64,000 nucleotides of DNA. Origin: Leclercia sp. S52. Lineage in GTDB: Bacteria; Pseudomonadota; Gammaproteobacteria; Enterobacterales; Enterobacteriaceae. The notes beneath the pieces are model-generated. The model ran no database searches and was not told the origin of the DNA. It saw only the letters and a list, made by a program, of their open reading frames with translations. The first letter of the stretch is position 1; every line of letters begins with the position of its first letter. This document shows, piece after piece, positions 11,501 through 61,731 of the stretch. The stretch spans positions 248,001-312,000 of the forward strand of contig NZ_CP152474.1 in NCBI RefSeq assembly GCF_039727615.1, given 5' to 3'. The translations under genes and the position numbers were made by a program.

Positions 11501-11774
11501 TTAGCGCCTTCCACGGGTTGGGGTATTTGCCGACCAGGAGAATGTCGCCTCTTTATCCACTTTATAAGCCTGCTCTTTTTTAAGCTTGCGGGCTTTTTTT
11601 AGCGTCCAGTTCACGCTGCGCCATCAGTTTGTCGATGTACTCTTTCTTAACGTGATTGGTTTCGGCGTTGGTCAGCAGTCGGCCATGGGCGATACGGGCG
11701 CGATCGAGCAGGGTTTTCAGCTCGCGCTGCTCGCTCTCCGTCATCTCTTTCTGGGTCAATCTCGGTGTGGACAT
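11501..11774 (-). pseudogene. yjbD: DUF3811 protein YjbD, frameshifted in an A7 run
   Basis: Small conserved enterobacterial protein of unknown function. The first 64 codons (MSTPRLTQKEMTESEQRELK...) stop early at 11580. One extra base in the A7 run (T7 on + at 11594-11600) causes this; reading it as A6 continues through KKARKLKKEQAYKVDKEATF and ends ...ANTPTRGRR at 11501. The restored protein is 90 residues, the E. coli YjbD length. The restored stop codon abuts the rluF stop. A sequencing over-call is the simplest explanation; polymerase slippage on A7 is a weaker possibility. Confidence 0.85.
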
Positions 11775-11837
11775 ACCTGAAGCCTCCTGTGGACGAGGCT
11801 TCAGTGTAAAGCATGCCTTCGCTGTCGCGAAGCTGAA

Positions 11838-12782
11838 TTACCCTTCCTTCACCACATCGCGTTTCTTTTGCTCATCGATCGGCTTACCCGACCAGTAACC
11901 CGCCAGCAGCGAGCCGGACAGGTTATGCCATACCGAGAACAGCGCGCCAGGCAGTGCCGCCAGCGGCGAGAAGTAAATTTTGCCGAGCGCAGCGGCCAGG
12001 CCGGAGTTCTGCATCCCTACCTCAATCGCCAGCGTACGGCAGGTGGATTCGTCAAAGCCGAAGAGCTTCCCGCCCCAGTAACCACCCAGCAGGCCGATGG
12101 TGTTGTGCAGCACCACCGCGATAATCACCACAAAGCCGACAGAGGCGATATGCGCCGCAGAACCGGCCACCACGGCGCTGATAATCGCCAGAATGCAGAC
12201 CATCGAAAACGCCGGCAGATACGGCTCCACGGCTTTCACCAGCCGCGGGAACAGGTGGTGGATAATCAGCCCCAGCGCAATCGGGATCACGACGATCTGC
12301 AGAATGCTCAGCAGCATCCCCATCACATCCACCTGAATGTGGGCATCCACGTACAGACGGGTCAGCAGCGGGGTCGCCACCACGCCCACCAGGGTGGAGA
12401 CGGAGGAGATGGTCACCGACAGCGCCACATCGCCTTTCGCCAGATAGATCATCACGTTGGAGGCCGTACCGCTGGCCACGCTGCCTACCAGCACCATCCC
12501 GGCGGAGAGATCCGGCGGCATTTTAAAGGCGATAGCCAGCGCCCATGCCGCCAGCGGCATCACCAGGTAGTGCAGGAAAATACCCGCCGCGACCGGGGCC
12601 GGGCGTGACAGCACGCGTTTAAAATCATCGACTTTCAGGTGCACGCCCATGCCGAACATGATCAGCATTAGCAGCGTGGTGACCCACGGGCCGATAGCGG
12701 TAAAGGTGGATGGCGTGTAATACGCGAGAACAGAGAGCAGCAGCGCCCATAATGGGAACAGCCGGGTGATGGCGGATAACAT
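11838..12782 (-). CDS. panS: Ketopantoate/pantoate/pantothenate transporter PanS (BASS family)
   Basis: Multi-pass inner-membrane protein of the bile acid:sodium symporter superfamily, 314 residues with about ten hydrophobic segments. It carries the paired family motifs [19 protein letters not shown] (about 100-118) and [15 protein letters not shown]. Salmonella PanS, which imports ketopantoate, belongs to this family and, as I recall, is encoded near metH/lysC, which supports the name; other BASS members have different substrates. It is monocistronic, downstream of rtcR in the same direction but separated by a terminator. Confidence 0.75.
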
Positions 12783-12824
12783 ACGGATTCCTTGCGATTG
12801 TGTTGTGTCATGTAGTTATAAAAA

Positions 12825-12846
12825 AAGCCGGGTTCGAGCCCGGCTT
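12825..12846. terminator. rtcR terminator
   Basis: AAGCCGGG-TTCGAG-CCCGGCTT hairpin. On the minus strand it is followed by a run of seven T, as expected for termination of rtcR upstream of panS. Confidence 0.85.
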
Positions 12847-12894
12847 AGAGATAGTGTTTATCCTGCTAATGAATTTTGTTCAACCAAATTTTCT

Positions 12895-14470
12895 TCATGA
12901 TCCCGGGTGAAGGCTTTCCCAGCTCAGCCCAAAGCGGGCGAGATATTTGCGCAGCCGGTCGGCATCGTTAGGGTTGACCTTTTTCATCCGGGAGACTGCA
13001 AAAAGTTCCCGACCGGCCTCGGATAATGAGGCGCTACGACGGCACACCTCCAGCACGGTTTCCAGCTGTCGCTGGTCGAAGAGATCGCGTTCCATCGCCG
13101 CTGATGGCGTGGCGGTTTGCCAGCTCTCCTGCAGCCTGGCGATCTCTTCCTCAACAAGCGCTAAGGTGATACGCCCCTGCTCGGCAAGGGTAGCCATTCG
13201 TGCCACAGAAGAGCCCAGTTCACGAAAGTTACCCCGCCATAACGCCTGAGGCGAGTCAGCAAAACGCAGATAGCGCTCGCGCGCCTCTTTATCGAAGCGA
13301 ACCTGAGATTGTGCTTCGGCCGCAAAGCGCTGCAGCTCGTACTCCACGTTAGGGGCGATATCCTCCCGGCGCTGCGCCAGGCCGGGCAGGGCAAAACTCC
13401 ACATATTGATGCGGGCGTAGAGATCCTCACGGAAACGGCTTTCCGCCACCCACTGACGCATATCCCGGTGCGTGCCGGCAATCAGCTGAAAATCGCTCCT
13501 GACCTCTTTATCGGAGCCAAACGGGAAGAAGGTTTTTTCTTCGATAGCCTTCAACAGCATGGCTTGTTCGTCGAGGCCCAGTTCGGCGATCTCATCTAAA
13601 AACAGCACGCCGCCGTCGGCCTCTCGCAGCAGCCCGGCGCGCGCCGTGGCTGCTCCGGTAAAGGCGCCTTTGACATGGCCGAAAAGGGTCGACATAGCGT
13701 TGTCACCCCGCAGCGTGGCGCAGTTTACCGCCACCAGCCTGCCTGCCAGCTGATGGCGGGATTGCTTAAGCTGGTAGATACGGTTGGCGAGGAAGGATTT
13801 TCCGGCCCCCGTTGGGCCGGTCAGTAACACCGGGGCAGTTGAGCGCAGCGCCACACGTTCAATCTGATCGATCAGGGCGTTAAAGGTGGCATTGCGGGTA
13901 TCAATCCCGGCTTTGAGGAACGAAATGGACTCCTGCTGTTCACGCTGAAAGCGGCTGGTCAGCGTGGCATAGCGGCTTAAATCCAGGTCGATGATCGAGT
14001 AACGTCCGACGGGTACGGCCTCTTCCGGCGCATCCCTGCTGGCGGGGCCGGTCTGGATCAGGCTGGCGGGGAGATACCGCGCTTCGGTCAGCAAAAACCA
14101 GCAGATCTGCGCCACGTGGGTGCCGGTGGTGATATGCACCAGGTACTCTTCATGCTCGGTGTCAAACTTGTAGTGGGTGGCGAAGTCGAGGAACGCGGCG
14201 TAGACCTCTTCAAAATCCCAGGGATCGGCAATGGTGACGGGGCACGGGCGCACGGTGGTATGGGGTGAAAGCAGCCTGATATCTTCCGTTATCTGTTCTG
14301 CCATCCCCCCGATCCTGGGGCTGGTGGAGGAGCTCAAGCCGGTCGACGGGGAGATCGGGCTGCTGGCAAAGCGCGACCGTTGGGCGCCATTTGCGTAAGC
14401 GGTTAGCCCGCTTGCCGCGTTTGTCCATCACCGTGCCCAAGACCCCAATAACCACCTGCCGCTTTTTCAT
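12895..14470 (-). pseudogene. rtcR: RtcR, sigma-54 activator of RNA repair, frameshifted in a G6 run
   Basis: Activator of the rtc RNA-repair genes. The N-terminal CARF domain (HITTGTHVAQICWFLLTEAR) is thought to sense RNA-derived ligands. The AAA+ domain has GPTGAGKS (Walker A), GAFTGA (sigma-54 contact) and LFLDEIAEL (Walker B), and a C-terminal DNA-binding region follows. Translation from 14470 (MKKRQVVIGVLGTVMDKRGK) shifts frame near codon 54 at six consecutive G (C6 on + at 14305-14310). With five G the frame continues QDRGMAEQITEDIRLLSPH and yields 524 residues, near the 532 of E. coli. As written, only a 480-residue product lacking the N-terminal 50 residues could be made from 14337. 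Probably an assembly error. Confidence 0.88.
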
Positions 14471-14604
14471 GTTTATCCTGCAAGATAAAAACCGATACTA
14501 AAAGATAAAAATATTCTGCGGGTTAAGCAATAATTGAAGAAGGCCTGTTAATTAAATTTAATATAATCAAAAGGATATGTTTTATTTGTGGAGACTAAAT
14601 ATTC

Positions 14605-14620
14605 TGGCACGCTTCTGGCA
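14605..14620 (+). promoter_or_regulatory. Sigma-54 promoter of rtcB
   Basis: TGGCACG-CTTC-TGGCA has the -24 GG and -12 GC dinucleotides 10 bases apart, matching TGGCACG-N4-TTGCA. It lies 39 bases upstream of the rtcB start in the rtcR-rtcB divergent gap, whose distal half is AT-rich (14490-14590), suitable for RtcR/IHF binding. Confidence 0.8.
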
Positions 14621-14658
14621 ATACTTCTCAGTAACAGACAGCCCTGAGGGTCAGCACC

Positions 14659-15885
14659 ATGAAACAGAATGATTTTGACGTGTTAACGGCGCAACACAGC
14701 GCCCCGGTAAAAATGTGGACGCACGGGGTGCCCGTTGAGCCAGAGGCGCGCGAGCAGCTGCTGAATACCGCGAAAATGCCGTTTATTTTTAAACATCTGG
14801 CGGTAATGCCGGATGTGCATCTCGGAAAAGGGTCCACCATTGGCAGCGTGATCCCCACCAAAGGGGCCATTATTCCGGCGGCTGTGGGGGTGGATATCGG
14901 CTGCGGGATGATCGCCGTGCGGACGTCGCTTCTGGCAGGCGATCTGCCGGATAACCTTCACGGGCTGCGTAGCGCCATTGAACAGGCGGTGCCGCATGGG
15001 CGCACCAACACCCGCTCCCGCCGCGACAAAGGGGCATGGGAAAAGACGCCGGATGAAGTGGATAACCACTGGCGTCAGCTGGCGCCACGCTTCAGGCGTC
15101 TGACGGATAAGTATCCGCAACTGCTGAAAACCAATAACCATCAGCATCTCGGGACGCTGGGCACCGGGAACCACTTTATCGAGATCTGCCTGGACGAGCA
15201 GCAGCGCGTGTGGGTCATGCTGCACAGCGGCTCGCGTGGCGTGGGTAATGCCATCGGCAACGTGTTTATCACCCTGGCGCAGAAAGATATGCAGCAGCAC
15301 ATCGCCAACCTGCCGGACAGAAATCTGGCCTATTTCCAGGAGGGAAGCCGGCACTATAACGACTACATCGAAGCCGTGGAGTGGGCGCAGGATTTTGCCC
15401 GCCATAACCGCGAGGTGATGATGTCGCGGGTGCTGGCCGCGCTGTCGCGCATCGTGCCAAAGCCTTTCCTGACCCAGCAGGAGGCGGTGAATTGCCATCA
15501 CAACTATGTGCAGAAAGAGCGTCATTTTGGTGAAGAGGTGCTGGTGACGCGCAAAGGGGCGGTGTCGGCGCAGAAGGGCGAGATGGGGATCATCCCCGGC
15601 TCGATGGGGGCGAAAAGCTTTATCGTGCGCGGCCTGGGCAACGAAGAGAGCTTCTGCTCCTGCAGCCATGGGGCAGGGCGGGTGATGAGCCGCACGGCGG
15701 CCAAAAAACGCTTCACCGTTGCCGATCAGATCCGCGCCACGGCCCACGTCGAGTGCAGAAAAGACAACGAGGTCATCGACGAGATCCCGATGGCCTATAA
15801 AGACATCGATGCCGTCATGGCGGCGCAAGCATCCCTGGTCGAAATCGTCCATACGTTGCGCCAGGTGGTATGTGTAAAAGGATAA
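14659..15885 (+). CDS. rtcB: RNA-splicing ligase RtcB
   Basis: GTP/Mn-dependent RNA ligase that joins 2',3'-cyclic phosphate or 3'-phosphate ends to 5'-OH ends, repairing cleaved tRNA and rRNA. The product is 408 residues, the same as E. coli RtcB. Metal ligands are visible in GVDIGCGM (Asp79, Cys82), LGTGNHFIEI and NCHHNY; the guanylylated histidine is His337 in CSHGAGRVMS. The ATG at 14659 follows a GAGGG site and a sigma-54 promoter. The next gene starts 5 bases downstream and encodes an RlaP-like nucleotidyltransferase rather than the RtcA cyclase of E. coli, so the operon composition differs. Confidence 0.96.
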   Translation: MKQNDFDVLTAQHSAPVKMWTHGVPVEPEAREQLLNTAKMPFIFKHLAVMPDVHLGKGSTIGSVIPTKGAIIPAAVGVDIGCGMIAVRTSLLAGDLPDNLHGLRSAIEQAVPHGRTNTRSRRDKGAWEKTPDEVDNHWRQLAPRFRRLTDKYPQLLKTNNHQHLGTLGTGNHFIEICLDEQQRVWVMLHSGSRGVGNAIGNVFITLAQKDMQQHIANLPDRNLAYFQEGSRHYNDYIEAVEWAQDFARHNREVMMSRVLAALSRIVPKPFLTQQEAVNCHHNYVQKERHFGEEVLVTRKGAVSAQKGEMGIIPGSMGAKSFIVRGLGNEESFCSCSHGAGRVMSRTAAKKRFTVADQIRATAHVECRKDNEVIDEIPMAYKDIDAVMAAQASLVEIVHTLRQVVCVKG

Positions 15886-15890
15886 AGCAG

Positions 15891-16679
15891 ATGGCTGATA
15901 ACGGTGTAGATACCGCCATGCGCGAGCGCGTACGGCAGCAACTCAACGAAATAGAACAACGATTTAATGTGACCGTGCTTTACGCCTGTGAATCGGGCAG
16001 CCGGGGCTGGGGCTTTGCGTCGCCGGACAGCGATTATGACGTGCGCTTCCTGTATGTGCATAAATCTGACTGGTATTTGCGCGTAGAGCCGCAGCGGGAC
16101 GTGATCGAGCTGCCGATAGACGACGAGCTGGACGTGAGCGGCTGGGAGTGGCGCAAGGCGCTTGGCCTGCTGAAAGCGGCCAACCCTACGCTTATCGAGT
16201 GGCTGGATTCGCCGGTGGTCTATCAGCAGAGCGAAACGGTGATAGCGGAACTACGCGCGCAGGTGCCCGCCTGGTTTTCCCCGGTTCGTGCGCGCTGGCA
16301 CTACTACTCCATGGCGCGTAAAAACTTCCGCGGTTATTTACAGGGCGAGGAGGTGCGGCTGAAGAAGTACTTTTACGTCCTGCGGCCGCTGCTCGCGGTG
16401 CGCTGGGTGGAGGCCGGAAAAGGGATACCGCCGATGCGTTTTGCCGAGCTGCTGGCGGGAAGCGATCTTGATGCGCCGTTACGTCAGGAAATCGATGCTC
16501 TGCTGGCGATAAAACAGCGCGCGGGAGAAGCACAATACGGTTTGAGGCGCCCTTTGCTGCACGCTTTTATTCAGCATGAGCTGGAACGGGGCGAAAACCC
16601 GCCCGCGCTGCCCGACAGCCGGGATGGCAAAATAGCCTCGCTGGATTCACTGCTGATGAGAACGGTGCTGGCGGGATAA
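15891..16679 (+). CDS. RlaP-like nucleotidyltransferase of the RNA-repair operon
   Basis: 262-residue protein of the DNA polymerase beta-type nucleotidyltransferase superfamily (COG3541/PF10127-like, RlaP). The active-site signature is ESGSRGWGFASPDSDYDVRF: Gly36-Ser37 and the metal-binding Asp48/Asp50. A helical region follows (RARWHYYSMARKNFRGYL). It lies 5 bases after rtcB and should be co-transcribed from the sigma-54 promoter, which suggests an RNA end-modifying or end-extending role during RtcB-dependent repair; the substrate is not known. I chose the ATG at 15891 over an upstream one at 15870 because the latter overlaps rtcB and lacks a ribosome-binding site. Confidence 0.85.
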   Translation: MADNGVDTAMRERVRQQLNEIEQRFNVTVLYACESGSRGWGFASPDSDYDVRFLYVHKSDWYLRVEPQRDVIELPIDDELDVSGWEWRKALGLLKAANPTLIEWLDSPVVYQQSETVIAELRAQVPAWFSPVRARWHYYSMARKNFRGYLQGEEVRLKKYFYVLRPLLAVRWVEAGKGIPPMRFAELLAGSDLDAPLRQEIDALLAIKQRAGEAQYGLRRPLLHAFIQHELERGENPPALPDSRDGKIASLDSLLMRTVLAG

Positions 16680-16685
16680 AAAAAT

Positions 16686-16703
16686 GGCCCGGTTTCCCGG
16701 GCC
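16686..16703. terminator. Bidirectional terminator between rlaP-like gene and lysC
   Basis: GGCCCGG-TTTC-CCGGGCC hairpin with an A-run on the left and GTTTCTGTT on the right, between two convergent genes. Confidence 0.8.
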
Positions 16704-16710
16704 GTTTCTG

Positions 16711-18060
16711 TTACTCAAACAAGTTATGATGCAGCTTCTGCACGACCTGCTCGGCTTCAGCGCCAGGCACCAGGAAGCACAGGTTGTAGCTGGATGCGCC
16801 ATAGCAAATCATGCGGATGTTGAACGGCTCCATCACGCCAAACACCTCTTTGCCCACGCCGCTGGCGCGGGACAGCTCGTTACCGATGATCGCCACCAGG
16901 GCGAGATCTTCTTCCACCTCGACGCGGCACAGTTCCGACAGCTCCATCAGCAGGGACTGGGTCAGCAGGGTATCGCCGGTGGAGGTTGAGCCGGTGGTAT
17001 CCAGGGTCAGGGCAATGTTCACTTCTGAGGTGGTCACCAGGTCCACCGAGATGCTGTGGCGCGCCAGGATGCTAAACACTTCTGCCAGGAAGCCGCGGGA
17101 GTGCAGCATGCTCAGGCTGTGCAGGGTCAGCAGGGTCTGTTTGCGACGCAGGGCGATGGCGCGGAACAGCGGTGGGTTTTCAGTGGTGTTGCACACGATA
17201 GTGCCGCCCGCTTTCGGATCTTTGCTGGAACCGACGAAGACCGGGATATTGCTGCGTACCGCAGGCATCAGCGTCGCCGGGTGCAGCACTTTCGCGCCAA
17301 AGGTCGCCATCTCAGCGGCTTCTTCAAAGGCAATCACATCAATACGTTTTGCCGCAGGCACCACGCGCGGGTCGGTGGTGTAGATACCCGGCACGTCCGT
17401 CCAGATATCGACGCGGGAGGCCTGCAGGGCTTCACCCAGCAGGGCTGCGGTGTAGTCGCTGCCGCCACGACCCAGGGTAGTGGTGCGGCCTTTGGCTTCG
17501 CTGCCGATAAAGCCCTGGGTGATGACAATCCCTTCCGCCAGGCGCGGCGCCAGCTGTTGGGTGGTCAGTTCGGCAATGGCGGTCACGTCCGGCTCGGCGC
17601 GGCCAAAGCGGTCGCTGGTGCGCAGCACTTTACGCACGTCAAACCACTGCGACTGAACGTTACGCTCGCGCAGCACTTCGACAAACAGCAGGGTCGACAT
17701 CAGCTCACCGTGGCTGACGAGCTCGTCAGTCAGGGCGGTGGAGGTGGCCAGAGAGGCGGCTTCCGCCAGGGTGATGATATTTTCCAGCAGGCGCTCGATC
17801 TCTTCGCTGATCACGCTCGGATTGCGCAGGCGGCCAAGAATATCAAACTGAATTTTGTGCAGCGCTTCGAGCTTCGCCTGGCGCTCGCTCGCTTCCAGCC
17901 CTTCAGCAAGGGCGACCAGCAGATTGGTGACGCCAGCCGAAGCGGACAACACCACCAGGCGGGTATCAGGATCGGCCAGCACCACATCGGCGCTGCGGTT
18001 CATGGCATCAAAATCGGCCACGCTGGTACCGCCAAATTTGGCGACAACAAAACTCGTCAT
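16711..18060 (-). CDS. lysC: Lysine-sensitive aspartokinase III
   Basis: Phosphorylates aspartate, the first step of the lysine/threonine/methionine pathway; the E. coli enzyme is feedback-inhibited by lysine. The product is 449 residues, the E. coli length: kinase domain with KFGGTSV at residues 8-14 and GRGGSDYTAALL, then C-terminal ACT domains (about 310-449; LHSRGFLAEVFSILARH). It is monocistronic and divergent from pgi. Its leader shows no trace of the lysine riboswitch usual for this gene. Start ATG at 18060 with a CGAGG site. Confidence 0.96.
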   Translation of the reverse strand: MTSFVVAKFGGTSVADFDAMNRSADVVLADPDTRLVVLSASAGVTNLLVALAEGLEASERQAKLEALHKIQFDILGRLRNPSVISEEIERLLENIITLAEAASLATSTALTDELVSHGELMSTLLFVEVLRERNVQSQWFDVRKVLRTSDRFGRAEPDVTAIAELTTQQLAPRLAEGIVITQGFIGSEAKGRTTTLGRGGSDYTAALLGEALQASRVDIWTDVPGIYTTDPRVVPAAKRIDVIAFEEAAEMATFGAKVLHPATLMPAVRSNIPVFVGSSKDPKAGGTIVCNTTENPPLFRAIALRRKQTLLTLHSLSMLHSRGFLAEVFSILARHSISVDLVTTSEVNIALTLDTTGSTSTGDTLLTQSLLMELSELCRVEVEEDLALVAIIGNELSRASGVGKEVFGVMEPFNIRMICYGASSYNLCFLVPGAEAEQVVQKLHHNLFE

Positions 18061-18146
18061 AACAACCTCGTGTCAGGGAAGGAAAAAAGCGACCATGGCA
18101 CAAGGACAAAATAGTTTTATCGGTGCAGGCGCAAATACCGTGTGTA

Positions 18147-18175
18147 TAAATAAAATGTGCAGGGGATCCTGTCAA
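18147..18175 (-). promoter_or_regulatory. Probable lysC promoter with a short, riboswitch-free leader
   Basis: On the minus strand a perfect TTGACA (-35) is followed after 17 bases by TATTTA (-10), giving a leader of about 80 nt to the lysC ATG. The end of the leader (CCCTGACACGAGG before the start) resembles E. coli, but the lysine-aptamer core strings (AGAGGNGC, GGAGGAGCCAGUC, GCCGAGG) do not occur anywhere in the 304-bp lysC-pgi gap. Promoter call by eye. Confidence 0.55.
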
Positions 18176-18364
18176 CGCCGGGATTATGCGGATTTTTCAT
18201 GCTGCCTTCCATATGAGAAACAGGACTTATAACAGCTATACTTTTGGAGCTTTTACGCTGCACTTGATGCAGGCCAGGCCAATGGCATAAAAACCATCAC
18301 AATTTTTGGCGACAGAGGCTACAATCGACCGAGGTCACAATTCTCAATTCAGAAGAGTATTGCT

Positions 18365-20014: not shown

Positions 20015-20036
20015 GTAAGTCTGCTGCGGTCTGTGT

Positions 20037-20604: not shown

Positions 20605-20609
20605 AAAAA

Positions 20610-20697: not shown

Positions 20698-21589
20698 TTA
20701 ACCTTTCACGCCCCCCCGCGGTCAGGCCGTTCACCAGCCAGCGCTGGGCCAGCAGGAACACGACGGTGATCGGGATAGCGGAGAGTACGGCGGCTGCGGC
20801 AAAGTCGCCCCACAGGTAGTTTTGTGGGTTGAGGTATTGCTGCATCCCTACCGCCAGGGTGTAGCTGTTCACATCACGCAGCAGCAGCGATGCGACCGGC
20901 ACTTCGGTGATAGCGGCGATAAACGACAGAATAAAGACCACCGCCAGAATCGGCACGGAGAGCGGCAGCAGCACCAGGCGGAACGCCTGCCACGGAGTGG
21001 CGCCATCCAGCGAGGCCGCTTCTTCCAGCGAGTTGTCGATGGTTTCGAAATAGCCCTTGATGGTCCAGACGTGCAGCGCGATCCCGCCGAGGTAGGCGAA
21101 GATCACCCCACCGTGGGTGTTCAGACCGATGAACGGCACGTACTGGCCGAGACGGTCAAACAACGCGTACAGGGCCACCAGCGACAGTACCGCCGGGAAC
21201 ATCTGGAAAATCAGCATCCCTTTCAGCAGCGTCGCTTTCCCCTTGAAGCGCATACGGGCAAAGGCGTAGGCGCAGGTGGTGGAGAGCGTCACGATACCGA
21301 TCGCAGTGATGGTGGCGACTTTCACCGAGTTCCACAGCCACAGCAGGACCGGGAACGGCGGCGGCGTGACGCGGCCATCGGCGTGCTCCACGCTGAAGCC
21401 CAGCGCCAGCTTCCAGTGCTCCCAGGATATTTGATCCGGGATCAGGCTGCCGGTGGCGAAGTTACCCGAACGCAGGGAGATGGCGATAACCATCAGCAGC
21501 GGGAACATGATCGCCGCGATAAAAATCAGCAGGCCTAAGTGCGTGGCGAAGAGGCGCAGCTTCTGAGATTTGGGTTGGACCATAGACAT
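20698..21589 (-). CDS. malG: Maltose ABC transporter permease MalG (3' frameshift in a G7 run)
   Basis: Inner-membrane permease of the maltose/maltodextrin importer MalFGK2. Six transmembrane helices and the EAA loop ([20 protein letters not shown]) that docks to MalK are present. The run of seven G (C7 on + at 20711-20717) shifts the last codons, so the written frame reads [13 protein letters not shown] and stops at 20657. With six G it reads NGLTAGGVKG and stops at 20698, giving 296 residues as in E. coli. The defect affects only the last three residues but adds a 16-residue tail. Third gene of malEFG. Confidence 0.93.
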
Positions 21590-21603
21590 GTTCTGTGCCC
21601 TCC

Positions 21604-23149
21604 TTAGTCGAATTTCATGCGTGTGGCTTTCAGGTTCACAATCGCCAGCGCGCCTACCAGCAGGAAGATCAGGGTGGCAATCGCTGCCGCCAGACCGAAG
21701 TCCTGACCGCCGCCGCCTTCGAAGGCGATACGGTAGGTGTAGCTCACGAGCAGGTCGGTATAACCGGCTGGCGTGGTGGTGCCGAGACGGTCCGGGCCAC
21801 CGTTGGTCAACAGCTGAATCAGCACGAAGTTGTTAAAGTTAAAGGCGAAGCTGGCGATCATCAGCGGCGTCAGCGGCTTGATCAGCAGCGGGAGCGTAAT
21901 CTTAAAGAAGTTCTGAAACGGGGTCGCACCGTCCATCGCCGAGGCTTCGTACAGGTCGTCCGGAATCGCCTTCAGCAGCCCCATGCACAGGATCATCATG
22001 TACGGATAGCCGAGCCAGGTGTTGACGATAACGATCATGGTGCGGGCGGTGGTCGGGTCGCTGAACCAGGCCGGCTTGATGCCAAACAGCCCGCTCAGCA
22101 TCATGTTGATTTCACCAAAGCTCTGGTTGAACAGGCCCTTGAAAATCAGAATCGAGATGAACGACGGTACGGCATACGGCAGGATCAGCAGGACACGGTA
22201 AATCGCTTTCCCTTTTAACGCTTCCCACTGCACCAGGCAGGCCAGCACCATGCCGACGGCCACGGTCAGGATCACGGTCAGTACCGAGAAGACCACGGTC
22301 CAGACGAATATGGCGAAGAACGGCTTCTGAATGCCTTCGTCGGTGAAGACGCGGGTAAAGTTGTCCCAGCCAATGGTGACGGTATAGCCCGGGCTGAGCT
22401 TATCGTCGCCCCAGTTACCGTCGGCATTCACGGATTGATAGAAGCCAATCTCGTTGTTCGGACGGTACTTCACGCCGGTCTGGTTGTTGGTGAGCGTGCT
22501 GTTATCGCCCAGCGTGTAGAGCGGGCGGGTGCCGGAGAACTGGCGCAGCGAGCTCATGATCACTTTGCTTTCGTCCGGCAGCTCGGCGGTAATCTGGGTC
22601 AATGCCTGTCGGTTCTGGGTGATGACACGCAGGTTAGCGCGCTCGCCTTCCGGCAGGGCGTCGGCTTCTTTCAGGGCCAGTTTCTGCTCGCCGCCAAATT
22701 TAAAGGCGTCGGAGACGTAGTTTTTGCCCGTTGCATCGTCGGTCAGCGCCAGCTTCCACTCATCACCGGCCGGGTAGAGGCCAAAGTTGAAGGTCTTACC
22801 GGCCTGATAGGAACGGTCCATCAGCACCTGCTGGGCACGTTCTTGCGCGAGCTGGTTGGTGCTGCTGTAGTTGGTAAAGGCAATGGCGATGGTGCAGATC
22901 AGCGGGAACAGGACAAACAGCCCCATCCCGGCCACGCCCGGATAGACATAGCGCCAGGCGTAGGCTTTACGATTGGCGAAAATATAGAGGCCGACCGCGC
23001 TTAAAATCAGCGTCATGGCGGCAAACAGGTACTCCCCCCTGGGCGTACATCAAAACAATAAGGTAACCCACCAGCAAGCCCAGCAGACCAATCACTGACC
23101 ATTTCAGCGTGTCGCTTTGCCACCAGTGTTTCTTTTTAACGACATCCAT
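21604..23149 (-). pseudogene. malF: Maltose ABC transporter permease MalF, frameshifted in a G6 run
   Basis: Larger permease subunit of MalFGK2. The start at 23149 gives MDVVKKKHWWQSDTLKWSVI and two-thirds of the second helix, then the frame breaks after MYAQG at six G (C6 on + at 23034-23039). With five G it continues GEYLFAAMTLILSAVGLYIF. The restored protein is 514 residues, exactly E. coli MalF, with the large periplasmic P2 domain (about 90-275) and EAA motif (YEASAMDGATPFQNFFKITL). As written the product would end after 60 residues. The pattern matches the other homopolymer insertions here, so an assembly error is likely. Confidence 0.93.
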
Positions 23150-23269: not shown

Positions 23270-25940
<2,671 letters not shown>

Positions 25941-28454: not shown

Positions 28455-28580
28455 TTTTTTTTGCACGGTCTGCCGCTGTTGCATCTCTGTTGCGATAATG
28501 TTCGCTAGTTCACGTTTGCCCGCCCCCATTCCGCGTTTCTGCGATACAATAGCTTCACGTTATGTATCGGAGAGTCTGGC

Positions 28581-32631: not shown

Positions 32632-33001
32632 ATGGCCAATAATACCACTGGGTTAACCCGAATCATTAAAGCTGCCGGCTATTCATGGAAGGGCATCCGT
32701 GCTGCCTGGATCAATGAAGCCGCATTTCGCCAGGAGGGGGGTTGCGGTCGTCGCGGCGATTATTATTGCCTGCTGGCTGGATGTTGATCCCATCACCCGC
32801 GTATTGCTGATTGGCTCGGTGATGTTGGTGATGATAGTCGAAATTCTGAACAGTGCGATCGAGGCGGTAGTCGACCGCATCGGCACTGATTTTCACGAGC
32901 TGTCGGGCCGGGCCAAAGATATGGGCTCTGCCGCAGTGCTGATGGCGATTATGGTTGCGTTGTTTACCTGGGTCACGCTGCTTTGGGGACATTTACGATA
33001 A
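32632..33001 (+). pseudogene. dgkA: Diacylglycerol kinase DgkA, frameshifted in a G6 run
   Basis: Small trimeric inner-membrane kinase that recycles diacylglycerol from MDO synthesis to phosphatidate. From the ATG at 32632 the frame reads MANNTTGLTRIIKAAGYSWK...NEAAFRQEG, then breaks at six G (32736-32741). With five G it continues VAVVAAIIIACWLDVDPIT to the stop at 32999-33001. The restored protein is 122 residues, exactly E. coli DgkA, with its three helices and the catalytic EILNSAIEAVVDR. Two rarer starts (32699) would give only the C-terminal part. Probably an assembly artefact. Confidence 0.93.
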
Positions 33002-33086: not shown

Positions 33087-33102
33087 CTGTATATACACCC
33101 AG
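33087..33102. promoter_or_regulatory. LexA (SOS) box 2 of lexA
   Basis: CTGTATATACACCCAG, the second tandem operator. The G-run that follows is six long where E. coli has five, the same kind of +1 change seen in the frameshifted genes. Confidence 0.92.
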
Positions 33103-33111
33103 GGGGGCGGA

Positions 33112-43331: not shown

Positions 43332-43370
43332 TCCCTCTCCCCTGTGGGGAGAGGGTCAGGGTGAGGGGGG
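43332..43370. repeat. CCCTCTCCC/GGGAGAGGG intergenic palindrome
   Basis: TCCCTCTCCCCTGTGGGGAGAGGG followed by TCAGGGTGAGGGGGG, between alr and tyrB. It is the most complete of three copies in the window. Confidence 0.7.
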
Positions 43371-43491
43371 AACAGACCGCACCGCAGGTTCTGTCGCCCA
43401 TGCCCCATCTTCCTTAACATCCTCTCGATCTTCTCCCGCTTCCGGTTTATTGTTGAATTCCCTGCCTCATTATTATCCGGAGAACCATCGC

Positions 43492-45703: not shown

Positions 45704-46121
45704 ATGTGGTATCAGCAAACCCTGACCCTGCGCGCCAGGTCTCGTGGTTTTCACCTGGTGACGGACGAGGTCCTCGGACAGATCCGCGATCTCCCCCCGC
45801 ATCAAGGTCGGTTTACTGCATCTGTTGCTGCAACATACGTCAGCCTCTCTCACTCTCAACGAGAATTGCGATCCCACCGTCCGTTCCGATATGGAGCAGC
45901 ATTTTCTCAAATCCGTTCCCGACGATGCTCGCTGGGAACATGATGACGAGGGGCCAGATGACATGCCTTCCCATATTAAATCCTCCTTGCTGGGCGTCTC
46001 TTTGCTGCTGCCGGTGAATCACGGCCGCGTGCAGCTCGGCACCTGGCAGGGGATCTGGCTGGGAGAACATCGTATCCATGGCGGTTCGCGCAAAATTATC
46101 GCTACGCTACAAGGGGAATAA
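45704..46121 (+). pseudogene. yjbQ: UPF0047 protein YjbQ, frameshifted in a C6 run
   Basis: Member of the YjbQ family, for which a secondary thiamine-phosphate synthase activity has been proposed. The start at 45704 gives [20 protein letters not shown]...IRDLP, then the frame breaks at six C (45793-45798). With five C it continues [20 protein letters not shown] to the stop at 46119-46121. The restored protein is 138 residues, exactly the E. coli length, with the conserved His/Glu-containing [16 protein letters not shown]. Its stop overlaps the yjbR start. Probably an assembly artefact. Confidence 0.92.
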
Positions 46122-54294: not shown

Positions 54295-54617
54295 TTCAGC
54301 TGATGACGGTAGTCGCTGGGGGTGCGATCAAACTCGCGGCGGAATACGCGGGAAAAGGTCTGCTGCGAGACATAGCCCAGATCCATGGCGATATCAAAAA
54401 TAGGTCGCTGGGTCGTGCGCAGCGCCTGAGCGGCCAATAATAACCGGCGTTGGCGAATGTACTCGCCCAGCGTCTGGTGCATCACGGCGCGGAACATCCT
54501 CTGTAAGTACCACTTCGAATAACCTGACTTTTTCGCCACCACATCAATACTCAAGGGTTGATCGATATGGTCATCCATCCATTCAATAAGTGTCTGAATA
54601 ATTTGTTGATGCGACAT
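54291..54617 (-). CDS. soxS: Superoxide response regulator SoxS
   Basis: AraC/XylS-family activator of the oxidative-stress and antibiotic-resistance regulon; its amount is set by SoxR-dependent transcription. 108 residues (E. coli 107, one extra C-terminal Asn). Two HTH motifs: IDVVAKKSGYSKWYLQRMFR and the second in IFDIAMDLGYVSQQTFSRVF. The ATG at 54617 was chosen over 54641 by alignment. Divergent from soxR with the SoxR operator between. Confidence 0.96.
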   Translation of the reverse strand: MSHQQIIQTLIEWMDDHIDQPLSIDVVAKKSGYSKWYLQRMFRAVMHQTLGEYIRQRRLLLAAQALRTTQRPIFDIAMDLGYVSQQTFSRVFRREFDRTPSDYRHQLN

Positions 54618-54685
54618 AAAGCAGCCTCCCTCTGGGTACACCTGTGTCTATAGATTCGTCGTTTTGTCTGCGGGCGAGTATAATT

Positions 54686-54703
54686 CCTCAAGTTAACTTG
54701 AGG
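54686..54703. promoter_or_regulatory. SoxR operator in the soxS promoter
   Basis: Perfect 18-bp palindrome CCTCAAGTTAACTTGAGG, the SoxR binding site between the -35 and -10 of the soxS promoter, 13 bp before soxR. Confidence 0.93.
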
Positions 54704-54715
54704 TAAAGAGATTTT

Positions 54716-55174
54716 ATGGAAAAGAAATTACCGCGGATAAAACCGCTGCTGACGCCGGGCGAGGTGGCCAGGCGTAGCGGCGTGGCGGTGTCAGCACTGC
54801 ATTTCTATGAAAGCAAAGGGTTAATTAAAAGCATTCGCAACACCGGTAACCAGCGGCGTTATACCCGCGACGTGCTGCGCTACGTGGCGATCATTAAGAT
54901 TGCCCAACGCATTGGCATCCCGCTCGCCACCATTGGCGAGGCGTTTGGCATCCTGCCGGAGGGGCATACCCTGAGTGCGAAGGAGTGGAAAGCATTGTCC
55001 TCCCAGTGGCGCGACGAACTGGATCGGCGCATTCATACCCTGGAGGCGCTGCGCGATGAGCTTGACGGCTGCATTGGCTGCGGATGCCTGTCGCGCAGTG
55101 ACTGCCCTCTGCGTAACCCTGGCGACAGACTGGGCGAACAGGGCACCGGCGCGCGGCTGCTGGAAGAAGATTAG
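54716..55174 (+). CDS. soxR: Redox-sensing activator SoxR
   Basis: MerR-family dimer that activates soxS when its [2Fe-2S] clusters are oxidised. 152 residues. HTH at 11-30 ([20 protein letters not shown]), dimerisation helix (about 83-118), cluster cysteines Cys119, Cys122, Cys124 and Cys130 in [12 protein letters not shown]. Start ATG at 54716. The 3' end is followed by a terminator shared with the opposite-strand SraL RNA. Confidence 0.97.
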
Positions 55175-55185
55175 CCCGACGCAGT

Positions 55186-55327
55186 AAAAACTAAAGCGCC
55201 ACAGAGGCGCTTTAGTTTATTCCCGGTCTTTGTCTTTCTCTCTATCCCGCTGGTTCACAGGAGGGTTTCCCCCGACATCAACACCCCTCAGTCGAGCATG
55301 CTTTGGAGGTTCCGGTTTGTGCTGACA
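55186..55327 (-). ncRNA. sraL: Small RNA SraL (RyjA)
   Basis: The minus strand contains conserved SraL blocks: AACCGGAACCTCC near the 5' end, TGTCGGGGGAAACCCTCCTG, CCAGCGGGATAGAGAGAAAG, ACAAAGACCGG, and the terminator stem ACTAAAGCGCC / GGCGCTTTAGT ending in a T-run. The 5' end is inferred from a -10-like CTAGACTT at 55332-55339, as expected for the sigma-S promoter of SraL. In Salmonella SraL represses the chaperone gene tig. Location between soxR and the ghxP region is conserved. Exact ends are estimates. Confidence 0.85.
55190..55216. terminator. Shared soxR / SraL terminator
   Basis: ACTAAAGCGCC-ACAGA-GGCGCTTTAGT with A5 on the left and TTTATT on the right; it acts in both directions. 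Confidence 0.9.
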
Positions 55328-55447
55328 ATTTAAGTCTAGGCCGGGAGCCCGGGTTTGCCAGCGGCACAGTACAAAAACTCGGCGAAATTTTTTCGCCAGG
55401 TTGTGCAATTTTCTATAGTTAGTGGATAAGCCCAACTGGAGATGACC

Positions 55448-56120
55448 ATGATTAAGGTCCACCACCTCAACCAGTCCCGATCCCAGCGTGTGCTCTGGGC
55501 GCTGGAAGAGCTCTCACTGCCCTATCAGATTGAACGTTATCAGCGGGATAAGACAATGATGGCGCCCGCCGCGTTGCGCAAAGTCCATCCGCTGGGCAAA
55601 TCTCCGGTGCTGGAGGATAACGGCCTGATCCTGGCGGAGTCGGGCGCGATCCTCGAATACCTGCAGGAGACCTACGATCCCGGCTCGCAGCTTAAGCCGC
55701 AGGATCGCGAGCTGAAACTGCACTACCGTTTCTGGCTCCACTACGCGGAAGGCTCCCTGATGCCGTTGCTGCTGATGAAGCTGGTCTTCTCCAGCCTCGG
55801 TAAACCGCCGATCCCGTTTGGCCTGCGCTCGCTGGGCAAAGTGCTGGGGCAGGGGGGTGCAGAAAGCGTATCTCAACAAACAGCTGGAAACCCACGCCCG
55901 TTTTCTGGAGTCCTGGCTTAAGGATCACCGCTGGTTTGCCGGGGATCGTCTCAGCATGGCGGATGTGCAGATGAGCTTTCCGGTGTTTGCCCTGCTGGAG
56001 CGTGGCGGCATAGAGGATCTTCCTCACCTGCAGACGTGGAAGAAAAACGTCGAAATGCGGCCAGCCTGGCAGCGGGCGATCCAGCAGGGCGGTCCGTTCG
56101 AAATCCCCGGCGAGCCCTGA
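55448..56120 (+). pseudogene. Glutathione S-transferase, frameshifted in a G6 run
   Basis: Thioredoxin-fold N-domain (MIKVHHLNQSRSQRVLWALE; glutathione-site residues SPVLEDNGLILAESGAI at about 56-72), then a helical C-domain. The frame breaks at six G (55852-55857) after GLRSLGKVLGQG. With five G it continues VQKAYLNKQLETHARFLESW to the stop at 56118-56120. The restored protein is 223 residues. A GST gene is known at this place, between soxR and ghxP, in Salmonella. An alternative start is 55442. Its position next to soxRS suggests an oxidative or electrophile defence role, which is inference. Confidence 0.87.
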
Positions 56121-56288
56121 AAATGTTATCAAATTGCGCATTCACGATAACGTTTGCGCATACTCTGTCTACTTCTTCACCACCCCGTACGGAAATTAGC
56201 GAAAAACGGCAAAGTTAAGTTGAAAATGCCCATGTTTAAGCCGGATAATCGTTTGCCTTTAATTCAACACCCGTTTTGTCAGCGCGAA

Positions 56289-56304
56289 GCTAAACGTTTG
56301 CTTT
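56289..56304. promoter_or_regulatory. Putative PurR box upstream of ghxP
   Basis: GCTAAACGTTTGCTTT resembles the PurR operator ACGCAAACGTTTGCGT; a second half-like match, GATAACGTTTGCGCAT, is at 56146-56161. E. coli ghxP (yjcD) is a PurR regulon member. Confidence 0.6.
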
Positions 56305-56418
56305 TTTTATGACGCCCCTCTTTGTCATAAACGCAGCACAGGGATATGACGTTTCGCTGGTCGTGGAGTGTCCATCACGCTGACCGACGACGATAATAAT
56401 TTTCAGGGGATGTTTTCT

Positions 56419-57768
56419 ATGTCTACGCCATCTGCGCGTACCGGCGGTTCACTCGACGCCATGTTCAAAATTTCTGCCCGCGGCAGTACCGTGCGTCAGG
56501 AGATCGTTGCCGGTCTGACGACCTTCCTGGCGATGGTCTACTCGGTGATCGTGGTGCCGGGCATGCTGGGCAAAGCCGGTTTCCCACCGGCGGCGGTCTT
56601 TGTCGCCACCTGTCTGGTGGCCGGTGTCGGCTCCATCGTAATGGGTCTGTGGGCCAACCTGCCGCTGGCGATCGGTTGCGCCATCTCATTGACCGCCTTT
56701 ACCGCATTCAGCCTGGTACTGGGCCAGCACATCAGCGTGCCGGTTGCGCTGGGTGCTGTGTTCCTGATGGGTGTGCTGTTTACCATTATTTCCGCCACCG
56801 GTATCCGTAGCTGGATCCTCCGCAACCTGCCGCAGGGCGTTGCGCACGGCACCGGGATTGGTATCGGCCTGTTCCTGCTGCTGATTGCCGCTAACGGCGT
56901 AGGTCTGGTGATCAAGAATCCGCTGGACGGTCTGCCGGTTGCGCTGGGTAATTTCGCCAGCTTCCCGGTGATCATGTCGCTGATTGGCCTGGCGGTGATC
57001 ATTGGTCTGGAAAAACTGAAAGTGCCGGGCGGCATCCTGCTGACCATCATTGGCGTTTCTGTGGTGGGGCTGATTTTCGATCCGGCAGTACACTTCTCCG
57101 GCGTGTTCGCCATGCCATCCCTGAGCGATGAAAACGGCAACTCGCTGATCGGCAGCCTGGATATCATGGGCGCGCTGAACCCGGTGGTGCTGCCAAGCGT
57201 GCTGGCGCTGGTGATGACCGCGGTCTTCGACGCCACCGGCACCATCCGCGCGGTAGCGGGCCAGGCGAACCTGCTGGATAAAGACGGTCAGATTATCGAT
57301 GGCGGCAAAGCGCTGACCACCGACTCCCTGAGCAGCGTCTTCTCCGGTCTGGTGGGTGCCGCGCCGGCAGCCGTGTATATCGAATCTGCGGCGGGTACGG
57401 CGGCAGGCGGTAAAACCGGTCTGACGGCGATCACCATCGGCGTGCTGTTCCTGCTGATCCTGTTCCTTGCTCCGCTGTCGTATCTGGTTCCGGCATACGC
57501 GACCGCACCTGCGCTGATGTATGTTGGCCTGCTGATGCTGAGCAACGTGGCGAAAATCGATTTTGCCGACTTCGTTGATGCGATGGCCGGGCTGATCACC
57601 GCGGTGTTCATCGTGCTGACCTGTAACATCGTCACCGGCATCATGATCGGTTTCGCCTCGCTGGTGATCGGCCGTATCGTCTCCGGTGAATGGCGCAAGC
57701 TGAACATCGGAACGGTAGTGATTGCCGTGGCGCTGGTGGCGTTCTACGCGGGCGGCTGGGCTATCTAA
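56419..57768 (+). CDS. ghxP: Guanine/hypoxanthine permease GhxP
   Basis: Proton-coupled purine importer of the NCS2/AzgA family in the inner membrane. 449 residues, the same as E. coli GhxP (YjcD), with about thirteen hydrophobic helices. Family motifs: [19 protein letters not shown] (about 28-46), [16 protein letters not shown] and [20 protein letters not shown]. The open frame begins at 56368; I chose the ATG at 56419 ([17 protein letters not shown]) by alignment. PurR-like sites lie upstream. Ends at a terminator. Confidence 0.96.
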
Positions 57769-57788
57769 GCTGTCAACTGCGTAAAAAG

Positions 57789-57810
57789 ACGGGTGGCTCA
57801 GGCCGCCCGT
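57789..57810 (+). terminator. ghxP terminator
   Basis: ACGGGTGGC-TCAG-GCCGCCCGT followed by TTTTATTTT. Confidence 0.85.
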
Positions 57811-57920
57811 TTTTATTTTCGGAACACATCTTGTTGCCTTATGCGTTACTCTGGGGGGAGATACACTGTGGCAAGATGCCAGTGATGTAAACGTACAGAA
57901 ATCTCGCAAACAGGGAACGC

Positions 57921-59567
57921 ATGGAAATCTTCTTCACAATACTCATCATGACCCTTTTGGTCTCCCTCTCCGGGGTAGTTACCCGCGTACTGCCCTTCCA
58001 GTTACCGCTTCCGCTGATGCAGATCGCCATCGGTGCTCTGCTGGCGTGGCCGACGTTCGGATTGCACGTCGAGTTTGATCCCGAACTGTTTCTGGTACTG
58101 TTTATTCCTCCCCTGCTGTTTGCCGACGGCTGGAAAACCCCGACCCGTGAGTTTCTCGAACACGGGCGCGAAATCTTCGGCCTGGCGCTGGCGCTGGTGG
58201 TGGTCACCGTGGTGGGGATTGGTTTCCTCATCTACTGGGTGGTGCCGGGGATCCCGCTGATACCGGCCTTTGCGCTGGCGGCGGTACTGTCACCCACCGA
58301 TGCCGTGGCGCTGTCCGGGATCGTCGGTGAAGGGCGCATTCCGAAGAAAATCATGGGCATCCTGCAGGGCGAGGCGCTGATGAACGACGCCTCCGGCCTG
58401 GTGGCGCTGAAATTTGCCGTCGCCGTGGCGATGGGCACCATGGTCTTCACCATCGGCGGGGCGTCCGTTGAATTCTTCAAAGTGGCCATTGGCGGCATTC
58501 TGGCTGGGTTTGTGGTGAGCTGGCTGTATGGCCGTTCGCTGCGCTTCCTCAGCCGCTGGGGCGGCGACGAACCCGCCACGCAAATCGTGCTGCTGTTCCT
58601 GCTGCCGTTCGCCTCTTATCTGATTGCAGAACACATCGGGGTGTCGGGTATTCTGGCCGCGGTGGCGGCGGGGATGACCATCACCCGCGCCGGGGTTATG
58701 CGCCGTGCGCCGCTGGCGATGCGCCTGCGCGCCAACAGCACCTGGTCGATGCTGGAATTTGTCTTTAACGGCATGGTGTTCCTGCTGTTGGGCCTGCAGC
58801 TGCCGGGGATCCTCGAGTCCTCGCTGGTGGCGGCCGAGGCCGATCCGAATGTCGAAACCTGGATGCTGTTTACCGACATCGTGCTGATTTACGCCGCGCT
58901 GATGCTGGTGCGTTTCGGCTGGCTGTGGACGATGAAAAAGTTCAGCGTGCGTTTCCTGAAAAAGAAACCGATGGAGTTTGGCTCCTGGACCACCCGTGAA
59001 CTGCTGATTTCCACTTTCGCCGGGGTACGTGGGGCCATCACCCTCGCCGGTGTGCTCTCCATTCCGCTGCTGCTGCCGACCGGCGACGTCTTCCCGGCCC
59101 GCTACGAGCTGGTGTTCCTGGCCGCCGGAGTCATCCTCTTCTCGCTGTTTGTCGGCGTGGTGATGCTGCCGATCCTGCTGCAACATATGGAGGTCGGCGA
59201 TCACGTTCAGCAGCATAAAGAGGCGCGTATTGCCCGGGCAGCAACCGCTGAAGTGGCGATTGTCGCCATCCAGAAGATGGAGGAGCGTCTGGCCGCCGAT
59301 ACCGAAGAGAACATCGATAACCAGCTGCTGAAAGAGGTGAGCTCGCGGGTAATTGGCAACCTGCGCCGCCGCGCGGATGGCCGCAACGATGTGGAAAGCT
59401 CGCTGATGGAAGAGAATCTCGAACGCCGCTTCCGTCTGGCCGCGCTGCGCTCTGAACGCGCGGAGCTGTACCACCTGCGCGCGACCCGGGAGATCAGCAA
59501 CGAGACGCTGCAGAAGCTGCTGCACGATCTCGATTTGATGGAAGCGTTGTTGATAGAGAAGCAGTAA
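57921..59567 (+). CDS. yjcE: Putative Na+/H+ antiporter YjcE (CPA1 family)
   Basis: Inner-membrane cation:proton antiporter of the CPA1/NhaP type, 548 residues (E. coli 549). About twelve hydrophobic helices with the ion-binding Asp pair in LSPTDAVALSGIVGEG and GEALMNDASGLVALKFA (about 120-165), then a charged cytoplasmic C-terminal tail (about 420-548). Transport activity of E. coli YjcE is inferred from family. Start ATG at 57921. Followed by a BIME. Confidence 0.94.
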   Translation: MEIFFTILIMTLLVSLSGVVTRVLPFQLPLPLMQIAIGALLAWPTFGLHVEFDPELFLVLFIPPLLFADGWKTPTREFLEHGREIFGLALALVVVTVVGIGFLIYWVVPGIPLIPAFALAAVLSPTDAVALSGIVGEGRIPKKIMGILQGEALMNDASGLVALKFAVAVAMGTMVFTIGGASVEFFKVAIGGILAGFVVSWLYGRSLRFLSRWGGDEPATQIVLLFLLPFASYLIAEHIGVSGILAAVAAGMTITRAGVMRRAPLAMRLRANSTWSMLEFVFNGMVFLLLGLQLPGILESSLVAAEADPNVETWMLFTDIVLIYAALMLVRFGWLWTMKKFSVRFLKKKPMEFGSWTTRELLISTFAGVRGAITLAGVLSIPLLLPTGDVFPARYELVFLAAGVILFSLFVGVVMLPILLQHMEVGDHVQQHKEARIARAATAEVAIVAIQKMEERLAADTEENIDNQLLKEVSSRVIGNLRRRADGRNDVESSLMEENLERRFRLAALRSERAELYHLRATREISNETLQKLLHDLDLMEALLIEKQ

Positions 59568-59576
59568 CCGTTTGTT

Positions 59577-59648
59577 GCCCGGTGGCGCTGCGCTTACCGG
59601 GCCTACATGTTGACCGTAGGCCGGGTAAGGCGAAGCCGCCACCCGGCG
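59577..59648. repeat. BIME between yjcE and the LysR gene
   Basis: GCCCGGTGGCGCTGCGC...ACCGGGCC and GGCCGGGTAAGGCGAAG...CCACCCGGC between convergent genes. Confidence 0.87.
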
Positions 59649-60536
59649 CTATTCCACCGAAGTCCAGAATCCCTCACAGCATTTCAGCCACGCCTGGGCG
59701 CTGTTCGACAGATAGACCCCCTCACGCCAGATCATCCCCAGCTGCCAGTGCAGATCGCTCTGCAGCGGGATCCAGCGCAGGGTGTTTTTGTCCAGCCGCT
59801 CGCAGATGGGCTGCGGCAATATCGCAATCCCCACCCCCGCCTGCACCATCGCCGCCAGAAAGTCCCACTGCCCGCTGCGCACCGCGATGCGCGGCTTCAC
59901 GCCGTGCTGGCTGAAGAGCTGCATCAGCTGGCGGCTGAGGGCAAAATCTTCGTTGTAGATCAGCAGCGGGTGCTCGGCCAACAGCTCCGGATTAATGGCC
60001 TCCAGCGTCAACCAGCTGCCGGAGCGCGGCACCAGCACGCACAGCGGATGGCTGAACAGCGGCAGCGCCGTCAGACCGCTGTCCTCCTCCACCGGCAGGG
60101 CGGTCATCGCCAGATCCAGCTCGCCGTTGATCACCGCCTGTTGGACGGTTAAGCCACCAAATTCAGAAATTTTCAGCTCCACGCCGGGATAGCGCTGGCG
60201 AAACAGGCCGATGGGCCCGGCCATCATCATCCCCACCATCGGCGGGATCCCGAGGCGCAGTACGCCTTTATTCAGGTGGTTGATGTCGCCAAGCTCGGCC
60301 TCCAGCTGGCGAAATTCCGCGAGGATCGCCAGCCCGCGCTCAAACACCACCCGGCCGGTGTCGGTTAACAGCAGCTTGCGTCCGTCGCGGATCAGCAGGG
60401 TACAGTTCAGTTCATCTTCGAGGTTTTTCAGCATTTTGCTGATGGTGGGTTGGGTGACAAAAAGCTTCTCCGCGGCGCGGGTGAAACTCTGCTGGCGGAC
60501 CACTTCGACAAAGTAACGCAGCGTGCGTATGTCCAT
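59649..60536 (-). CDS. LysR-family regulator, probable controller of the CidA/LrgB pair
   Basis: 295 residues. N-terminal winged HTH (1-60, FTRAAEKLFVTQPTISKMLK) and a C-terminal periplasmic-binding-protein-like effector domain (about 90-295). It is divergent from a CidA/LrgB-type operon with 101 bp between start codons, the arrangement of CidR-type regulators that respond to weak acids or overflow metabolism in Gram-positive bacteria. Control of the neighbouring pair is inference from position. It lies outside the E. coli-like backbone. Confidence 0.85.
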   Translation of the reverse strand: MDIRTLRYFVEVVRQQSFTRAAEKLFVTQPTISKMLKNLEDELNCTLLIRDGRKLLLTDTGRVVFERGLAILAEFRQLEAELGDINHLNKGVLRLGIPPMVGMMMAGPIGLFRQRYPGVELKISEFGGLTVQQAVINGELDLAMTALPVEEDSGLTALPLFSHPLCVLVPRSGSWLTLEAINPELLAEHPLLIYNEDFALSRQLMQLFSQHGVKPRIAVRSGQWDFLAAMVQAGVGIAILPQPICERLDKNTLRWIPLQSDLHWQLGMIWREGVYLSNSAQAWLKCCEGFWTSVE

Positions 60537-60637
60537 GACTATTCCTCGAAACTATACCTTTGATGATTTTAATTCATTTCAGTCAATTACGGGCGCTGAC
60601 TATACTGGCGCTCTCTCTCATTTTGAGGAAATCCCCC

Positions 60638-61048
60638 ATGACCGTGGCGTTAGGTCGCGTTACGCCTGCCGTCGTGCAACGACTCCAGGTACCGGTTCAG
60701 GTACTGCTTTATGCGGGTCTTTTTGTCTTCGCTGAATACCTTGTTGGCTGGCTACATCTGCCGCTGCCGGCCAATCTGGTTGGCATGGTGCTGATGTTCA
60801 GCCTGATCCTCTGCCGCATCATTCCCCTGAACTGGGTGCGGGCAGGCTCGCGCTGGCTGCTGGCGGAAATGCTGCTGTTCTTTGTGCCGGCGGTGGTGGC
60901 GGTGGTCAATTACGTCCAGCTGCTGATGGTGGACGGCTGGCGTATCTTTGCGGTGATTGCCCTGAGCACGCTGATGGTGCTGGGTGCCACCGCCTGGGTG
61001 GTGGATAAAGTCTACCGCTATGAAATCAGCAGGCAGAAACATGACTAA
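60638..61048 (+). CDS. CidA/LrgA family holin-like membrane protein
   Basis: 136 residues with four hydrophobic helices (about 20-40, 45-63, 75-95, 105-125) and the family signature LPLPANLVGMVLMFSLILCR. CidA/LrgA proteins pair with CidB/LrgB; the complexes have been linked to murein hydrolase control in staphylococci and to pyruvate uptake in Bacillus. The E. coli relatives are YohJ/YohK. I chose the ATG at 60638 (MTVALGRVTP) with a GAGGA site rather than the upstream 60560. The stop codon region overlaps the next gene's ATG by 8 bases, so the pair is translationally coupled. Confidence 0.88.
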   Translation: MTVALGRVTPAVVQRLQVPVQVLLYAGLFVFAEYLVGWLHLPLPANLVGMVLMFSLILCRIIPLNWVRAGSRWLLAEMLLFFVPAVVAVVNYVQLLMVDGWRIFAVIALSTLMVLGATAWVVDKVYRYEISRQKHD

Positions 61049-61731
61049 CTTTCAGGTCAGCGTCCTCTGTCTGGTGGTAACCCTGGCGATCTATTTTGCC
61101 AACAAGCGCCTGTACCGCCGCTTTCGTAAACTGCCCCTGATGCCGCTGGTCTTCACCCCGATTTTGCTGGTGATGATGCTGGTGTGGGGCCATATCTCCT
61201 GGCAGAACTATATCGGGGAAGCGCACTGGCTGCTGTGGCTGCTCGGCCCGGCGACCATCGCCTTTGCGGTGCCGGTGTACGACAACCTGGCGGTGATCAA
61301 ACGCCACTGGATGTCGCTCTCCGCCGGGGTGATCACCGCCACGGTGGTGGCGGTCACCAGCTCGGTCTGGCTGGCGCGGTTGTTTACTCTGTCGGACGAG
61401 ATCCAGCGCAGCCTGGCGGTGCGCTCCGTCACCACCCCCCTTTGCGCTGGCCGCAGCAAAACCACTCGGCGGGCAGCCGGATCTGGTGGCGCTGTTCGTG
61501 GTGGTAACCGGGGTGTTTGGCATGGCGGTGGGGGATATGCTGTTTTTACGGCTCTCGATCCGCGAAGGGATGGCGAAAGGGGCCGGGTTTGGTGCGGCCT
61601 CGCACGGTGCCGGCACCGCCCGCTCCTATGAGCTGGGTCAGCAGGAGGGGGTGGTCGCCAGCCTGGTGATGATGCTCTCCGGAGTGGTGATGGTGCTGGT
61701 GGCCCCGCTGGTGGGCTGGTTGATGTTCTGA
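61041..61731 (+). pseudogene. LrgB/CidB family membrane protein, frameshifted in a C6 run
   Basis: Partner of the preceding CidA-like gene. The frame starts at 61041 (MTNFQVSVLCLVVTLAIYFA) and breaks at six C (61435-61440) after RSVTTP. With five C it continues FALAAAKPLGGQPDLVALFV and ends VLVAPLVGWLMF at 61731. The restored protein is 229 residues with the family's AAASHGAGTARSYEL-like block (SHGAGTARSYELGQQEG). As written the product is truncated at the C-terminal third. Probably an assembly artefact, as for the other seven genes. Confidence 0.87.

Follow-up and report, generated by a model that had tools for sequence, protein, structure and literature searches.

Lengthened mononucleotide runs in the window

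The window analyzed here is a stretch of 64,000 nucleotides (G000:C1:248001-312000) within a single contig of 4,932,897 bases, in an assembly, G000, with a completeness rating of 99.96%. It holds eight genes that each carry a mononucleotide run one base longer than in related genomes. The yardsticks were a draft of the same species in about 50 contigs (G011) and two congeners (G032 and G039), with mean identities to the window block of 96.3%, 93.3% and 95.1%, respectively. Of the named loci compared, those of Enterobacter come nearest to the window (Enterobacter sichuanensis and an Enterobacter MAG, 86.5% over the aligned portions), so that the genus is probably Enterobacter or a near neighbor.

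Four of the genes lie on the minus strand, and at these two relatives align (G032 and G039), the matching G011 contig being outside the comparison. They are yjbD, a DUF3811 gene (gene match 11504-11774), with a T7 run at 11594..11600; rtcR (12898-14470), with a C6 run at 14305..14310; malG (20711-21589), where a C7 run at 20711..20717 occupies the 3' end of the gene; and malF (21607-23149), with a C6 run at 23034..23039. The other four lie on the plus strand and align with all three relatives: dgkA (32632-32998), with a G6 run at 32736..32741; yjbQ, a UPF0047 gene (45704-46118), with a C6 run at 45793..45798; a glutathione S-transferase (GST) gene (55442-56114), with a G6 run at 55852..55857; and an LrgB-like gene (61020-61728), with a C6 run at 61435..61440. 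All eight runs had been listed, each as a +1 event, in an earlier note made from the DNA letters, and nucleotide alignment places the window longer by one base at each of them against every aligning relative. In yjbD, rtcR, yjbQ, the GST gene and the LrgB-like gene, at least one relative has a different letter within the run, so that the difference common to the relatives is one of length only.

The extra base splits seven of these genes, i.e., aligning the intact proteins of the relatives with the window takes two frames, which join at the run site. malG is the exception to the earlier description of eight broken genes, since residues 1-293 of 296 match the window in a single frame and the change is confined to the last residues at the C-terminal end. 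The protein lengths proposed earlier agree with the intact orthologues of yjbD, rtcR, malG, malF, dgkA and yjbQ (90, 524, 296, 514, 122 and 138 residues), and those of the remaining two depend on the start codon chosen: by the first possible start, the GST frame in the relatives spans 225 or 254 residues (previously 223) and the LrgB-like frame 236 or 248 (previously 229). The family names assigned to the eight genes are backed by Pfam.

The list of eight was incomplete, however, as the window holds twelve such runs. The four additional ones are all intergenic: a C6 run at 24719..24724 and a T8 run at 28455..28462, each exceeding its counterparts in G032 and G039 by one base, and two G6 runs, one between dgkA and the next gene at 33102..33107 and one at 57853..57858, each exceeding its counterparts in all three relatives by one base. 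A C5 run at 60633, for which G011 is the only relative with a shorter run, was left out of the count. Of the 14 G/C runs of at least six bases in the window, 10 carry the excess; one of the four that do not, at 43365, lies within a stretch missing from the relatives.

This G-rich intergenic stretch (43356-43382) has no counterpart at the corresponding position in any of the three relatives and resembles a small repeat element of the kind found between genes. Elsewhere in the window, ARAGORN reports a tRNA-Ser(GCT) at 4025-4107, inside a 285-residue open reading frame (3384-4241) on the opposite strand; this is perhaps a false call.

Dependence on run length, direction and sequence context

Run lengths were surveyed beyond the window in seven blocks of G000 totaling 835,000 bases, compared with G032 over 773,583 alignment columns (summed over high-scoring segment pairs). 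Runs of at least five bases were scored if four identical bases flanked them on each side and discarded if the flanks differed, which left 1363 runs. Lengthening by one base was found in 36 of 212 G/C runs of five, in 21 of 34 runs of six and in both runs of seven, and shortening by one base in two runs of five and one of six. Among G/C runs of four, scored with six-base flanks, only 2 of 1131 were lengthened. The G/C excess thus climbs with run length and is nearly nil in short runs. For A/T runs the corresponding counts were 7/768, 21/264, 6/66 and 0/15 at lengths five, six, seven and eight, and here the rise does not continue. The changes run almost entirely in one direction: across the 1363 runs there were 93 gains of one base, 10 losses of one base and one loss of three. 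A gain of two bases was seen in none of the 1363 runs with four-base flanks, and in a single A/T7 run when two-base flanks were accepted.

Pairs formed among the relatives themselves served as controls over the window block (G039-G032, G011-G032 and G011-G039). They gave no lengthened run among 46 G/C runs of five or six, and three runs shortened by one base; G000 compared with the same-species genome over an enlarged block gave 9 lengthened of 46 (Fisher p = 0.0025 against 0/46 in the control pairs). For A/T runs of six, one of 43 was lengthened in the control pairs versus 21 of 264 in G000, and the A/T effect is therefore more weakly controlled than that of G/C.

Isolated one-base gaps were counted separately and numbered 231, of which 187 are insertions and 44 deletions in G000. 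Insertions at runs of at least five bases account for 136 of the 187 (98 in G/C and 38 in A/T runs). The remaining 95 of the 231 gaps, which are deletions or lie outside such runs, form a background made up of natural differences along with misplaced gaps. Scaled to the genome, the 136 insertions correspond to roughly 870 run-linked insertions, a rough projection given that the blocks were chosen rather than drawn at random.

The base preceding a run also matters. Read on the G strand over the seven blocks, G runs of five were lengthened in 22 of 72 cases after A, in 10 of 53 after C and in 4 of 85 after T (A versus T, p = 2e-5). That many runs stay in frame is accounted for by length in combination with context. 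The dependence on the preceding base suggests a base caller that responds to signal or model context, and may be a signature of the sequencing platform or of a base modification.

Two further sites were noted in G000. Near G000:C1 1584173, an ABC-ATPase frame spans 564 residues versus 659 in the same-species genome G011, a shortening that probably reflects a further frame break of this type; and fhuB of G000 carries three lengthened G runs in one gene relative to G032.

rRNA and essential genes

The excess is blind to the function of the DNA in which a run lies. In the eight 16S rRNA copies of G000, 9 of 40 runs are one base longer (5 of 32 G/C runs of five and 4 of 8 of six), and these are unevenly spread among the copies. 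None of the 40 corresponding sites is lengthened in G032 and none of the 40 in G039; the comparison was made with these two genomes, a full 16S match not having been obtained in G011. Near-identical 16S copies thus disagree with one another within G000 at sites that show no lengthening in G032 and G039. Over the seven blocks, with rRNA operon spans placed by hand around the 16S positions, rRNA and other DNA are lengthened at similar rates, both for G/C runs of five (4/25 versus 32/187; Fisher p = 1.0) and for runs of six (8/12 versus 13/22; p = 0.73).

The eight genes of the window are non-essential, as had been pointed out earlier, however, this is misleading with respect to the genome as a whole. 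We compared 102 Escherichia coli genes regarded as essential, with proteins taken from annotated K-12 regions, directly with G000 and G032. Thirteen genes that are not clearly essential were omitted (cydC, cydD, trxB, secG, rpsO, kdsC, folP, can, rpsT, rplQ, rpsM, erpA and hemL), as were murI, murB and birA, for which no position was found in the stretches compared. Seven of the 102 (murD, tsf, cdsA, dnaE, ftsK, ribF and ispH) are matched in two frames in G000, versus none of 102 in G032 (p = 0.014), and one-base insertions at runs were also found in rplX (named by NCBIfam), coaE and tilS. Runs within essential genes are few: G/C runs of five or six were lengthened in 2 of 12, and a first count with two-base flanks and fewer stretches gave 0 of 5 for G/C runs of five and 1 of 31 for A/T runs of six. 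A 785-residue protein in the compared DNA is DNA polymerase II rather than LptD, and one gene pair is speE and speD.

From what is established about these genes, a cell with a split replicative polymerase, EF-Ts and MurD would not be viable, and no cell could carry such split essential genes. That rRNA and essential genes are struck too indicates an ordinary assembly fault rather than biology.

Origin of the extra bases

Homopolymer over-calling, put forward in the earlier note as the leading reading, is supported by the law relating excess to run length, the one-way direction, the rate in rRNA, the disagreement among 16S copies and the split essential genes. On this sequence evidence we hold it as close to certain that the extra bases are over-calls introduced by the assembly. 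On this reading, a true G/C run of at least five bases and, more weakly, an A/T run of six or seven frequently appears in the consensus one base too long, with a chance that, for G/C, increases with length and varies with the base preceding the run. Within a gene, the extra letter moves the frame, and an intact gene appears broken. We infer that the fault would have arisen in base calling or consensus building, on an error-prone platform without accurate polishing.

Homopolymer errors of related kinds have been described for other assemblies. In a PacBio RS II assembly of Wolbachia wAu, 88 indels relative to Illumina data were mostly single-base insertions in homopolymer tracts (PMC4223829); the type of error is that of G000, but several hundred insertions are projected in G000 and their bias toward G/C is strong. 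In a PacBio assembly of Streptomyces, G/C runs were likewise the trouble spots and gave rise to false frameshifts, however, bases were omitted there, in runs of at least three (PMC4487206), whereas G000 shows additions in runs of at least five. In the MinION assemblies of the Kastor study, non-random indels associated with runs fragment genes and are detected against references, as in G000, but these were mainly deletions and affected A/T runs more than G/C runs (PMC12007338), in contrast to the mostly +1 and G/C-biased changes seen here. The +1 direction alone points to no single platform, as published homopolymer errors run both ways.

Most of the eight changes could be over-calls while at least one is a true natural frameshift of the strain. 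We consider such a mixture improbable. It draws on the background of one-base gaps, including the 44 deletions among the 231, and on the occasional run changes that also occur in the control pairs; against it, the length class and direction of all eight fit the general pattern of over-calling, and none of the 46 control G/C runs of five or six was lengthened. Any single one of the eight genes could still carry a true change, yet all are best regarded as intact unless accurate reads contradict this.

A lineage defective in mismatch repair, which would truly have gained bases in mononucleotide runs, had been raised earlier as an alternative, and we judge it extremely unlikely. A mutator is expected to yield gains as well as losses. 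The mixture of +1 and -1 changes looked for on this account did not appear in the seven blocks, where the 93 gains stand against 10 losses of one base and one of three, and the repair genes do not bear it out either: mutS, mutL and mutH are all open in frame, encoding 875, 620 and 283 residues versus 875, 618 and 283 in the relatives (a comparison of frame only). There is, moreover, no two-step change, all 21 lengthened G/C runs of six being longer by exactly one base (a simple Poisson model of independent repeated hits gives this a probability of about 1e-5), and rRNA and essential genes are struck. The non-essential nature of the eight named genes would speak for a mutator, as would the status of runs as indel hot spots in mismatch-repair-defective E. 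coli. In the mutation-accumulation study of such strains, indels concentrate in mononucleotide runs, in likeness to G000, but essential coding sequences took only 31 of the 5,324 indels (PMC8510543), and mutS, mutL and mutH of G000 are open in frame. Relative-rate counts of substitutions on the G000 and G011 branches were 1279 versus 1555 with G032 as outgroup and 551 versus 697 with G039, thus giving no excess for G000, in a weak test in which recombination is uncontrolled; from the 30,061 substitutions per 5,324 indels of that study (PMC8510543), a mutator would be expected to add only about 86 substitutions over 87 kb.

That a living lineage truly has one base more in the majority of its longer G/C runs, including those in some rRNA copies and in essential genes, and repairs the frame in transcription or on the ribosome, has in our estimation a vanishingly small probability. 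Other bacteria are known to show slippage on runs, but that precedent finds nothing in the present data to join it; a reading in which the extra bases truly exist, with transcriptional slippage or programmed frameshifting bringing the genes back into frame, has practically no chance of being right, since intergenic and rRNA runs, for which frame is irrelevant, are struck at the same rate and a shared rescue of many unrelated genes and a structural RNA is not credible.

Consequences for gene content

With homopolymer over-calling as the preferred explanation, the caution voiced earlier about pseudogene calls from this assembly is upheld, and claims of gene loss and metabolic reconstructions based on it are likewise unsafe. 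The approach provides a screen for other assemblies that works without reads, in which the rRNA copies serve as internal truth and are combined with the state of the essential genes and the run-length law relative to related genomes.
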